A model generated the notes under the pieces. The model was not told the DNA's origin, did no database searches, and was given only the letters and a program-made list of their open reading frames with translations. Positions 808 to 10,702 of a stretch of 32,046 nt of DNA are shown one piece after another. The stretch covers positions 1 through 32,046 of IMG/VR virus record IMGVR_UViG_3300045136_000090. One strand, 5' to 3'. Numbering within the stretch: position 1 is the stretch's first letter; each line of letters starts with the position of its first letter. A program made the translations under genes and the position numbers. The DNA comes from a virus.

Positions 808-2583
808 ATGCAAACCACAGGCATATTCACTATCCACCAAGTTGACATTCCTATCAAAAAATTAGATGAACCAATTTACTTAATCCCTTTCGGAGATATT
901 CACCGCTCAAGTCCAATGTGCCACACTCAGAAATGGCTTGAGTTTCTTGATTGGGCTAAAAAGAAAAAGAATGCTTACTTTTTAGGTATGGGAGATTACG
1001 ACGACCTTGCAAGTGCTTCGGAAAGAAAAATTTTAGTTAATAAGGACTTACACGACTCATCACTTCAAACCCTTGAGAAACTCTATCTTAGTCATACAAA
1101 AAGATTATACGATGAAATAAAATTTATGGAAGGCAGAATCATAGGTTTGATGGAAGGAAATCACTACGGAGAGTTCTTAAACGGCACGACAACAACACAA
1201 AAACTTGCGGAACTACTAAAATGCAAATACTTAGGAGTTTCAACTTTTATAAGATTAAGTTTTTCTTTAAGTTCATCTAAAGCCGCAATAGACATCTGGG
1301 CGCATCACGGTAAAGGTGCGGCGAGACTTATCGGAGGTTCACTCAATAGGGTTCAACAGATGGGAGAAGCCGCTGAAGCCGATATTTATTGTGTAGATGA
1401 AGAAACAGAAATTTTAACGAAAGACGGATGGAAACGATATAACGAAATACAAAAAGATGATATTGTATATTCATATTCTATTGAAAACAAAAAAATAGAA
1501 TTAGACATAGCAAAGGATGTTATAATTAACGAATATTCTGGCGAAATGTATGAAATTAAAAACTCTAATTTGGATATGCTACTATCGCCTAATCATCGGG
1601 TTTTATATAGGCAAAGGGGCGGCGATTATTTAATTAAGAAAGCCAAAGAATTTGAGAATTTCAAATCACAAGTTCAATTCCCTGTGGCTGGTTTATACGA
1701 AGGCACGACTATTTTATCGGACGAAAAAATAGCGTTAGCCGCCTGGATAATATCGGAGGGAAGTTTTTTAGGTAGCGGAATAAGAATATATCAAAAGTAT
1801 GAAGAAAAGACACAAATTATAAAAAACCTATTAGATAAGATTGGCTACGGATATACATTAAATAAAAGGTCTGATGGGATGAATGTTTTTTATATACATT
1901 CGAAACATAAAAAAGATATATTGTTTTTTGTTAAAGACAAAGACATCCCTGAATGGGTGTATTCTCTCGACCAAAGGCAATTTGATATATTTTTAAGTAA
2001 TTTGGTTAAGGGAGATGGATGCGCTAATTCAGAAACATCGGGGCAATATTATTCTTCAAATGTAGATTTAATAGACAGATTGCAGATTGCTTGCACACTA
2101 CATAATTATCGAACTATCAAACAATATAAAAAAGGCGGATTTAAAAATGGTGGGTGGCGACTTTTATATTCAAAAAGAGATACCGTTGATTATGCTTTTA
2201 GCAAAAATGATATAAAGAAAGTTGAGTATAAGGGAATAATTTGGTGTGTTAATACATCTAATACAACAATTATATGCAGAAGGAATGGGAAGGTTTTCAT
2301 AACGGGGAATTGTATGGGACACGACCATAAGAAATCCGTTGGATTAGTAACTAAACTTTCACTTGCTTCAGGCAAAGGCGGGCTTAAACTCAGACACAGA
2401 AAACAACTCTATGCAAGGACGGGTTCATTCCTTAAAGGATATGAAGACAATAAAGTATCTTATGTAGCGGATATGGCTTTATCACCTACGGACTTAGGTG
2501 TGGTAAAGATAGAACTTACGCCGAGAAGAAACAGAAAAGGCGGTGAAGATAGATTCTATGTTGACATTCACGCAAGCATATAA
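808..2583 (+). CDS. Calcineurin-like metallophosphoesterase interrupted by an intein
   Basis: The 591-residue precursor contains the metallophosphoesterase signature in order: GDIH (29-32), GMGDYDD (60-66), EGNHY (116-120), HH (166-167) and CMGHDH (502-507). These residues bind the two metal ions of Mre11/SbcD-like and related phosphodiesterases. Residues 195-501 are an intein; removal gives a 284-residue enzyme with a continuous IYCMGHDHKK motif. The substrate is unknown. Phage members are often placed with DNA-processing genes, and this one precedes a cytosine methyltransferase by 8 bases. The RBS is AAGGAAGG seven bases before ATG. The enzyme-class call is strong; the biological role is open. 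Confidence 0.88.
   Translation: MQTTGIFTIHQVDIPIKKLDEPIYLIPFGDIHRSSPMCHTQKWLEFLDWAKKKKNAYFLGMGDYDDLASASERKILVNKDLHDSSLQTLEKLYLSHTKRLYDEIKFMEGRIIGLMEGNHYGEFLNGTTTTQKLAELLKCKYLGVSTFIRLSFSLSSSKAAIDIWAHHGKGAARLIGGSLNRVQQMGEAAEADIYCVDEETEILTKDGWKRYNEIQKDDIVYSYSIENKKIELDIAKDVIINEYSGEMYEIKNSNLDMLLSPNHRVLYRQRGGDYLIKKAKEFENFKSQVQFPVAGLYEGTTILSDEKIALAAWIISEGSFLGSGIRIYQKYEEKTQIIKNLLDKIGYGYTLNKRSDGMNVFYIHSKHKKDILFFVKDKDIPEWVYSLDQRQFDIFLSNLVKGDGCANSETSGQYYSSNVDLIDRLQIACTLHNYRTIKQYKKGGFKNGGWRLLYSKRDTVDYAFSKNDIKKVEYKGIIWCVNTSNTTIICRRNGKVFITGNCMGHDHKKSVGLVTKLSLASGKGGLKLRHRKQLYARTGSFLKGYEDNKVSYVADMALSPTDLGVVKIELTPRRNRKGGEDRFYVDIHASI
1390..2310 (+). mobile_element. Intein with LAGLIDADG-type homing endonuclease
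   Basis: The 307-residue insertion begins with Cys (CVDEETEILTKDGWK, block A) and ends RNGKVFITGN before Cys+1. Block B is SPNHRV, about intein residues 66-71. Two homing-endonuclease motifs are visible: LAAWIISEGS (116-125) and FLSNLVKGDG (201-210), the double LAGLIDADG (DOD) arrangement. The insertion point lies immediately before the conserved GHxH motif of the host enzyme, a typical site because conserved residues favour homing and hinder loss. The residue before the terminal Asn is Gly rather than the usual His. Both acidic residues of the endonuclease motifs (Glu123, Asp209) are present, so it may be active. Confidence 0.93.
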
Positions 2584-2591
2584 GAGGATTT

Positions 2592-3530
2592 ATGGAGGGA
2601 ATAAAAGTTCTATCATTATTTGATGGCATATCTTGTGCGAGAGTTGCTCTTGATAGAATTGGTGTGCCGGTAAGTTATTATTACTCAAGTGAAATAGATA
2701 AATATGCAATTCAAATAGCACAAAAGAATTACCCTGATACGATACAACTTGGGGATATTAAGGAAATTTCTCTGAATAAATACCCTGAAATAAATAATCC
2801 TGATTTGATAATCGGGGGCAGTCCTTGCCAGGATTTATCAATAGCTAAAAAAGACCGCAAAGGATTAGAAGGTGAAAGAAGCGGTTTATTCTGGGAGTAT
2901 GTTCGTATATTAAAAGAAGTTCATCCAAAATATTTTATTTTAGAAAATGTGGCAAGTATGTCAAAGAAAGATAAAGAGATAATTACACAGACCTTAGGCG
3001 TAGAACCAGTAATGATAAATGCTTCATTAGTCTCGGCACAAAACAGAAAAAGATCATTTTGGGTTGGCAAAAAAGTTAATGATGGATATATCCAAGTTGA
3101 AATACCCCTACCAGAAGACAGAGGAATTTTATTAAAAGATATTTTAGAAAACGGGAGTGTGGATAGATTAAAAAGTTATTGTATAGACGCAAATTATTAT
3201 CGCGGCTCGAATTGGAAACAATATAAAACAAGAGGCAGAAGGCAGTTAGTTATAGTGGGCAATATCAGCAATAATAGTCAAGGCAATAGAGTTTACTCTC
3301 CAGAAAGCAAATCTACAACACTATCAGCAAACGGTGGCGGTTGGGGTGCAAAAACAGGTTTATACTTAACTGAAAATATTGTAAGAAAATTAACACCAAT
3401 AGAATGCGAAAGACTTCAGGGATTGCCTGATAATTATACCGAAGGCGTAAGCAATACACAAAGATATAAAGCATTGGGTAACGCCTTTAATGTTGATGTT
3501 GTTGCTCATATATTAAAATATATTTTTTAA
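2592..3530 (+). CDS. dcm: DNA (cytosine-5-)-methyltransferase
   Basis: The 312-residue enzyme shows the ordered motifs of C5-cytosine methyltransferases: SLFDGISCA (motif I, SAM binding, 8-16), GGSPCQDLS with catalytic Cys79 (motif IV), LENV (117-120, motif VI), SAQNRKR (148-154, motif VIII), LTPIECERLQGLP (motif IX) and YKALGNAF (motif X). It transfers a methyl group from SAM to cytosine in a short DNA target. The target is not predictable here. No restriction endonuclease is seen nearby, so it probably acts as an orphan protecting phage DNA. The Shine-Dalgarno AAGAGGA overlaps the stop of the upstream gene, indicating co-transcription. Confidence 0.93.
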   Translation: MEGIKVLSLFDGISCARVALDRIGVPVSYYYSSEIDKYAIQIAQKNYPDTIQLGDIKEISLNKYPEINNPDLIIGGSPCQDLSIAKKDRKGLEGERSGLFWEYVRILKEVHPKYFILENVASMSKKDKEIITQTLGVEPVMINASLVSAQNRKRSFWVGKKVNDGYIQVEIPLPEDRGILLKDILENGSVDRLKSYCIDANYYRGSNWKQYKTRGRRQLVIVGNISNNSQGNRVYSPESKSTTLSANGGGWGAKTGLYLTENIVRKLTPIECERLQGLPDNYTEGVSNTQRYKALGNAFNVDVVAHILKYIF

Positions 3531-8711: not shown

Positions 8712-10046
8712 ATGCTGGATACAGAACGATTACCTGATTTAGAGAAGTCAGTTTTAGGAATAATGCTCTCCGAGAATAGGGTAATACCTACTGTTTTAGA
8801 ATATTTAGATGAAGAATGTTTTACTGAGCCGTTGCACATTGACTTATTTAAAACCATAAAAACCTATTACTTAGAAGATACACCGATTGATGTATTAGTT
8901 GCTTATAATGCATTAAAAAATAAATACAAGAAAAGTGTCGTTGAAATATCCGAAATGGTTTCTACTTCTACGACTACTGAACTTAATGCAAAAACCCACG
9001 CTATTTTACTCTTAGAAAAGAAACTTGCACGGAAATTATTAAAATCTACCGAGATTATTAAAAAAGAAATCGAATTAGGAAACCCAATAGATGAAGTAAT
9101 CTACAAAGCCGAAGAACTAATATTTGAAATCGCAACAAAATTTGATGTTAAAAAAGAAATCACAGTCTCTCAGAGCGTAAACGAAGTCGTAAAAGATTTA
9201 GAAGAAGTATTAAAGGGCAATTCAGAAATATTCATAAAAACAGGCTTGATAGATTTTGATAACTTAGCCGGCGGATTAAAGCCCGGAGAACTCATTGTCT
9301 TAGGTGCAAGACCTTCGATGGGAAAGACTTCTTTAGCCGTGTCTATGATCAAAAACATTTCAGTTACTCACCCTGTTTTATTTTTTACATTGGAAATGTC
9401 TCACAAGTCTATCACAACAAAATTACTCTCATTCAAAACAGGCATAACAGCATTTAGGCTTCTTACAGGGAAATATCCAAAAGAAGACAAAATAAGAATA
9501 GGCAAATCCGCAATCGAACTAATGAACCTTAAACTTCTCATAGACGATAACCCCGTGCTGAATATCTATGAATTAAAATCCAAATCGAAAAAGATAAAAC
9601 TTAGAGATGATATAAAATTGATTGTCATTGACTATCTTCAGTTAATCCGAGCCAAAGCCGATACAAGGGAAAGAGAAATCGCACTGATTTCAAGTGAATT
9701 AAAATCCTTAGCCAAGCAATTAGATATACCTATACTTTGTTTAAGTCAATTAAACCGTTCACTTGAAACCAGAGCTGACAAACGACCCACACTTGCAGAC
9801 CTAAGAGAAAGCGGTGCAATCGAACAAGACGCCGACCTTGTTTTATTTCTCTACCGGGATGAATATTATGGAGTAGATGTAGATGACAACGGAAATTCGA
9901 CCAAAGGAATAGCCGAGTTAATCGTAGCAAAAAACCGAAACGGAGCAGTAGGAAAAGTCAAACTTCACTTTAATTCAGAGACGACTGATTTTAACAATTT
10001 AGCAGAAAACAATCAATTAGAAACATATTATAATGACATAATATGA
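8712..10046 (+). CDS. dnaB: Replicative DNA helicase, DnaB family
   Basis: The 444-residue protein has the DnaB layout: an N-terminal helical domain (LPDLEKSVLGIML...), a linker, and a RecA-like ATPase domain. Walker A is GARPSMGKTS (198-207), FFTLEMS follows (224-230), Walker B is LIVIDYLQLI (303-312), and the motif-4 region LSQLNRSLETR / LADLRESGAIEQDAD (about 344-375) is intact. It unwinds DNA 5' to 3' at the replication fork, probably loaded by the initiator encoded just upstream. Length is normal and no intein interrupts the P-loop. The RBS is weak. It overlaps the adenine methyltransferase by ATGA. Confidence 0.95.
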   Translation: MLDTERLPDLEKSVLGIMLSENRVIPTVLEYLDEECFTEPLHIDLFKTIKTYYLEDTPIDVLVAYNALKNKYKKSVVEISEMVSTSTTTELNAKTHAILLLEKKLARKLLKSTEIIKKEIELGNPIDEVIYKAEELIFEIATKFDVKKEITVSQSVNEVVKDLEEVLKGNSEIFIKTGLIDFDNLAGGLKPGELIVLGARPSMGKTSLAVSMIKNISVTHPVLFFTLEMSHKSITTKLLSFKTGITAFRLLTGKYPKEDKIRIGKSAIELMNLKLLIDDNPVLNIYELKSKSKKIKLRDDIKLIVIDYLQLIRAKADTREREIALISSELKSLAKQLDIPILCLSQLNRSLETRADKRPTLADLRESGAIEQDADLVLFLYRDEYYGVDVDDNGNSTKGIAELIVAKNRNGAVGKVKLHFNSETTDFNNLAENNQLETYYNDII

Positions 10047-10702
10047 GTGAGATAAAACTTCCAGAAAGAAATTCTTTCATTCTTGGTGATTGTATGGATT
10101 ATCTGCCGTTATTCCCAGATAAGTATTTTGATTTGGCTATTGTTGATCCGCCGTATGGGATAGGATTCAGCGACTATGAAAGAGGAAGTTTGGGAGAATT
10201 TGTAAGAAGGCGTTATACGAAAGATGAAAAAAAGAAATGGGATTATCGCTTGCCTGACAAAGATTACTTTGACCAACTATTTAGAATCAGTAAAAATAGT
10301 ATAATCTGGGGTGGGAACTATTTTAATTTACCAAGTTGTAAACATTTTATATTTTGGTATAAGAAAAATCCCGTTCCTAATTTTTCAGATGGTGAATTTG
10401 CTTGGACGACTTTTGACAAACCCTCGAAATGCTTCGAATATCCATATTATGGCAATATAAATTCTGAACCAGACAGAATTCACCCAACCCAAAAACCCGT
10501 TGCATTATATCGTTGGCTTTTGAAAAACTATGCAAAGAAAGGCGATTTAATACTTGACACACACGTTGGCAGTGCTTCAAGTCTAATTGCCTGTGTTGAA
10601 TTAGGTTTTGACTACATAGGTTTTGAGAAGGACGAAGAATATTACGAGAAAGCAAGTAAAAGATTAAAATCAGCAACAAGAAAATATGAACTATTCGAAT
10701 GA
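10043..10702 (+). CDS. Adenine-specific DNA methyltransferase (N6/N4 type)
   Basis: The 219-residue enzyme has catalytic DPPYGIGF (35-42) after FILGDCMDYLPLFPDKYFD. A later HPTQKPVALYRWLLKNY is followed by ILDTHVGSASSLIACVELGFDYIGFEKDEEYYE, the SAM-binding motif I near the C-terminus. This is the beta-class order (catalytic motif first), typical of small phage DNA methyltransferases. It methylates the exocyclic amine of adenine, or less likely cytosine. Here DTHVGS replaces the usual DPFxGS, a small deviation in the SAM-binding loop. It is translationally coupled to dnaB. With the C5 enzyme it gives the phage two base modifications, probably against restriction. Confidence 0.9.
   Translation: MSEIKLPERNSFILGDCMDYLPLFPDKYFDLAIVDPPYGIGFSDYERGSLGEFVRRRYTKDEKKKWDYRLPDKDYFDQLFRISKNSIIWGGNYFNLPSCKHFIFWYKKNPVPNFSDGEFAWTTFDKPSKCFEYPYYGNINSEPDRIHPTQKPVALYRWLLKNYAKKGDLILDTHVGSASSLIACVELGFDYIGFEKDEEYYEKASKRLKSATRKYELFE

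Follow-up and report, generated by a model that had tools for sequence, protein, structure and literature searches.

A phage phosphoesterase gene in the 32-kb stretch of DNA analysed here (the window) is, very probably, interrupted by a homing intein of class 1, a mobile element that carries a two-motif LAGLIDADG endonuclease, sits at the conserved residue before motif V (GHDH) of the enzyme and splices, most likely constitutively. The window is a record of a viral contig collection and contains tailed-phage genes for a terminase, a portal protein, a DnaB-like helicase and an exonuclease. The host gene at 808-2583 on the plus strand, on which all features of the gene lie, is a single open frame of 591 aa without an internal stop. 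Positions 808-1389 encode an N-extein of 194 aa with calcineurin-like metallophosphoesterase motifs I-IV (GDIH, GDYDD, GNH and HHG), as judged from the sequence, the alignment of homologues and the fold of the homologue L014. The intein of 307 aa occupies 1390-2310 (precursor residues 195-501), extends from Cys1 to Gly306-Asn307 and was delimited by sequence, the NCBIfam family TIGR01445, alignment and a structural model. The codon of Asn307 (2308-2310) is followed by that of Cys+1 (2311-2313), the first residue of a 90-aa C-extein (2311-2583; sequence and alignment), and then by Met-Gly-His-Asp-His. Motif V itself, Gly-His-Asp-His with its metal ligands (2317-2328; homologue alignment), begins at the third residue past the C-terminal splice junction, and excision leaves a protein of 284 aa. 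A preliminary description of this DNA had proposed a 307-aa double-LAGLIDADG intein one residue before Met-Gly-His-Asp-His, and both this anatomy and the 284-aa product match exactly. The gene that follows immediately downstream (2592-3530) is DNA methyltransferase-like by a PHROG match, and a second such gene (10043-10702) was recognized from its sequence alone by a DPPYGIGF motif.

The exteins carry all the metallophosphoesterase motifs (DxH, GDxxD, GNH, H and GHxH), and residues D30, H32, G62, D63, N118, H119, H167, H505 and H507 are invariant in the homologue alignment (A5). A Pfam search of the spliced window protein gave no match at E 0.01, 16 of 31 homologues matched PF00149, and a profile of the extein homologues searched by sequence against PDB chains found no match. 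The fold was established through a model of L014, a homologue with 62% identity, rather than through the spliced window protein; structural alignment of this model (pLDDT 90) gives Z 14-17 for the PolD DP1 exonuclease, an archaeal phosphodiesterase and Mre11, and its Foldseek scores are weak when used alone. The host protein matches a PHROG annotated as 'DNA repair exonuclease'. Together with the fold and the nearby exonuclease and helicase genes, this match suggests that the host enzyme is a nuclease or phosphodiesterase of DNA metabolism.

Homologues without the insert mark both boundaries of the intein. When the complete precursor was searched directly against viral contigs, nothing was confirmed. 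A query made of the joined exteins identified three close relatives, and an alignment of these retrieved 37 loci from IMG/VR, 36 of which cover the site legibly; every one of these (26-62% identity) is continuous and none carries an insert. The insert is also absent from a Bacteroidota MAG contig (65% identity in the N-extein) and from an archaeal MAG contig. The insert-free homologues align without a break exactly across the two intein boundaries, so the 307 residues are not a constant part of the enzyme fold. The nucleophile at Cys+1 is required for splicing. Both intein carriers at the motif V site, the window and the locus L051, have this Cys, and the +1 position of the 36 empty sites is Leu in 31 and Ile, Val, Phe or Cys in the rest. 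The one intein-free locus with Cys at +1 (L047:4001-4795, ADIYCFAHNH) may hold a chance residue or possibly the trace of a lost intein.

The intein has the expected blocks in the expected order. Cys1, the class 1 nucleophile at the start of block A (1390-1392), is supported by the sequence, the alignment and a TIGR01445 intein_Nterm match that starts at residue 195, which is Cys1, with an E value of 4.9e-6, above the curated cut-off. Block B reads Ser-Pro-Asn-His (1585-1596; alignments), a TxxH-type motif in which Ser replaces Thr and the residue two past the His is Val and not the Trp of class 3. Block F contains Trp-Cys-Val with Cys480 at F:4 (2242-2250), and block G is Phe-Ile-Thr-Gly-Asn (2296-2310) with a penultimate Gly and a terminal Asn; both were assigned by sequence and alignment. 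The endonuclease domain has a first LAGLIDADG motif, LAAWIISEG, with Glu317 at the catalytic position (1735-1761; sequence, Pfam and alignment), and a second, FLSNLVKGDG, with Asp403 at the catalytic position (1990-2019; sequence and alignment), in which Asp-Gly is invariant in alignment A2. Both motifs retain the acidic catalytic residue, as is expected of a two-motif homing endonuclease, and the predicted endonuclease would cut the intein-free allele. The Pfam matches were weak, LAGLIDADG_3 falling just under and Intein_splicing below the cut-off. The AlphaFold model of the precursor has a mean pLDDT of 88, mostly above 90 within the intein, and matches the intein-endonuclease structures PhoVMA, TliVMA, PI-PfuI and PI-SceI (E 1e-9 to 3e-14) as well as the fold of I-DmoI. 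PI-PfuI, PI-SceI and PhoVMA likewise combine a Hint splicing fold with an inserted two-motif LAGLIDADG endonuclease, but they interrupt other exteins and are only 8-14% identical across the structural match.

The closest intein lies at the same insertion residue in another IMG/VR contig (3300021471_000007, L051/L131); the inteins are 44% and the exteins 33% identical, and the two inteins are sisters in the tree with a support of 0.994. The higher identity of the inteins could reflect differing constraint rather than transfer. The L051 intein resembles that of the window in its site (ADVY|C...ITGN|C-SGHTH), its LAGLIDADG domain and its penultimate Gly, and differs by Asp at F:4 and by a change of the block B His to Gln (SPNQ). 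The block B His is normally important in the first splicing step, and splicing of the L051 intein (L051:2001-2942) may be impaired or compensated.

Inteins had been regarded in the preliminary description as uncommon in this enzyme class, whereas they are in fact recurrent in phage metallophosphoesterases and occupy several active-site motifs. One such family, the mycobacteriophage RDF, itself a putative calcineurin-like phosphoesterase, has been published with 37 inteins (Kelley 2016, PMC5050341). Further phage phosphoesterase inteins were found in the Rheinheimera Barba phages and in at least eight other contigs from metagenomes, the latter at motif I, III, IV or V, the exact list being somewhat uncertain as several exteins were placed in the phosphoesterase fold by motif inspection with weak or absent Pfam matches. 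Inteins lie at motif III in L053, L057, L067, L089, the Barba phages (L004) and the mycobacteriophage RDF (L011/L012), and between motifs IV and V in L052, L144 and L145, the last cut off by the contig end. The intein of L111 (2001-2900) is located directly past a DxH-like motif I (ADYH|S) in a putative phage phosphoesterase recognized by its motifs and without a Pfam phosphoesterase match. In another putative phage phosphoesterase (L128:1-4921, IMGVR_UViG_3300020057_000496), the intein at 2001-2921 splits motif V itself between GH and SH (IHGH|C...LTGN|SHGK), which is a stricter case of motif splitting than the window intein adjoining GHDH. A scan of L132-L145 found no further intein at the motif V site, and most of the inteins there are in terminases, polymerases and other genes. 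A terminase-like ORF among them (L133:2795-3766) apparently has two inteins, one ending in Gly-Asn and one in His-Asn (CFIAGTKI...GVLVHN). Most motif III inteins from metagenomes cluster in the tree (0.82-0.99), whereas the placements of L004, L052, L111 and L144 are without support, so that any count of independent invasions would be tentative.

The RDF intein (Bethlehem gp51, Perseus gp51 and TheloniousMonk gp52; PMC5050341), whose splicing has been measured, likewise belongs to class 1, has a LAGLIDADG domain and adjoins a conserved motif in a phage phosphoesterase of the calcineurin-like type, and it shares the penultimate Gly and the Trp-Cys of block F with the window intein. It differs in its position at motif III (GNHD) instead of motif V, in Ser at +1 and in an intein identity of only 23% (tblastn).

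Some residues of the window intein look unusual and bear on how, and how well, it splices. A class 3-like mechanism, in which Cys F:4 instead of Cys1 makes the first attack, would agree with the presence of Cys and Thr at two positions, F:4 and G:5, of the WCT triplet (Trp B:12, Cys F:4 and Thr G:5), and with the best sequence match among solved structures, the class 3 AceL NrdHF intein (E 3e-4). This split intein (PDB 6zgq, PMC7891396) also lacks both His residues of Asn cyclization and has Cys F:4 and Thr G:5, but it has Ala at position 1 and no LAGLIDADG domain. Class 3 inteins by definition have no nucleophile as their first residue (PMC7891396, PMC5050341), whereas the window intein has Cys1, which is invariant in alignments A2 and A8. 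Moreover, the same-site relative L051 carries Asp at F:4. Such a mechanism is thus very unlikely, and class 3 membership was rejected on the presence of Cys1 and the missing Trp B:12. With Cys1, SPNH, Asn307 and Cys+1 all in frame, the intein is class 1 by definition, despite Cys F:4 and Thr G:5, because Cys1 is present and B:12 is Val. In inteins, F:4 is most often Asp and next most often Cys (PMC4031507). The preliminary description rightly read the residue before the terminal Asn as Gly (Gly306), not His, and suggested that it may slow the last step. His is absent from both G:6, the penultimate position, and F:13, and these positions aid Asn cyclization in most characterized inteins (PMC4031507), which would favour a dead or slow intein that leaves precursor or cleavage products behind. 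The reading frame and the key nucleophiles are retained, however, and Gly precedes the last residue in 64 of 70 non-duplicate relatives and His in two (63 Gly-Asn, one Gly-Gln, two His-Asn and four with penultimate Phe, Arg or Ser). The relatives were picked by their N-terminal pattern alone, and the counts are approximate and mildly biased since in a small number of rows the assigned end may belong to an adjacent copy or to a short intein and the profile that located the C-termini was built from Gly-ended sequences; yet the +1 residue is Cys, Ser or Thr in all of them. A penultimate His is common in inteins but not obligatory, so it is no defining feature. Published splicing data point the same way: splicing of the Bethlehem RDF intein, which ends in Gly-Asn, is already complete at time zero, its Gly-to-His mutant reaches about 50% only after more than 5 h (PMC5050341), and the AceL NrdHF intein, without both catalytic His residues, splices in minutes (PMC7891396). 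Slow splicing is therefore not expected, because Gly is normal in the clade and the published relatives without His splice well, and a dead or slow intein is extremely unlikely.

The position of the insert also raised the question, put forward in the preliminary description, of whether splicing acts as a switch. In the precursor model, residues 170-192, including the helix before motif V, and motif V (504-507) fall below a pLDDT of 50 while the N-terminal core is confident. In the model of the intein-free homologue L014, residues 181-190 and the site with motif V (191-200) are at 90-95 and residues 171-180 at 68; this contrast would fit an active site that has not formed in the precursor, but it is a modelling hint, the underlying alignments being of unequal depth. 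The unspliced enzyme is probably inactive until splicing takes place. It would be a further step to a regulatory switch, in which splicing conditional on redox state, metal, DNA or temperature times the active phosphoesterase during infection. The insertion at a metal-binding motif, the collapse of AlphaFold confidence there in the precursor but mostly not in the homologue, and the conditional splicing published for other inteins (for example PMC6195587 and PMC5790916) are in its favour. Homologues function without the intein, however, so that a switch is dispensable, insertion at active-site motifs is the usual pattern of selfish homing (PMC5050341), RDF, which among the tested relatives is nearest in enzyme type, splices completely at once, and there is no sign of a sensor. 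Neither the sequence, the context nor the relatives indicate a controlled switch, which has a very low probability, and it is likewise very unlikely that conditional splicing delays the completion of motif V to a particular phase of the infection, so that the intein truly times the phage enzyme.

We therefore return to the constitutively splicing class 1 homing intein. In this mechanism, the precursor would be translated as a single chain, and Cys1, perhaps aided by Cys F:4, would make the thioester. The N-extein would then be transferred to Cys+1, and cyclization of Asn307 without a penultimate His would release the 284-aa phosphoesterase. The excised intein would be an endonuclease able to copy its own gene into empty alleles on co-infection. 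The patchy presence of the intein may reflect recent homing; only one other intein was found at the site, and identity to the closest empty allele is about 62-65%. GC content lends no support to a recent arrival, since the intein (31.4%, GC3 26.7%) does not stand out from the other genes of the phage.

In all likelihood the intein splices constitutively and at a reasonable speed, and the insert would therefore be a selfish element tolerated by the enzyme rather than a regulator. The window intein is an ordinary mobile intein, a genuine further example of a well-known type, whose odd-looking chemistry is normal among its phage relatives. We found no earlier tabulation of the motif V site for phage phosphoesterase inteins, and motif V is added here to their insertion sites. 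Inteins have repeatedly invaded phage calcineurin-like phosphoesterases, with insertions in or close to metal motifs I, III, IV and V; those that share a site tend toward common descent. Gly-ended phage inteins are widespread, so the absence of a penultimate His is no indicator of slow splicing.
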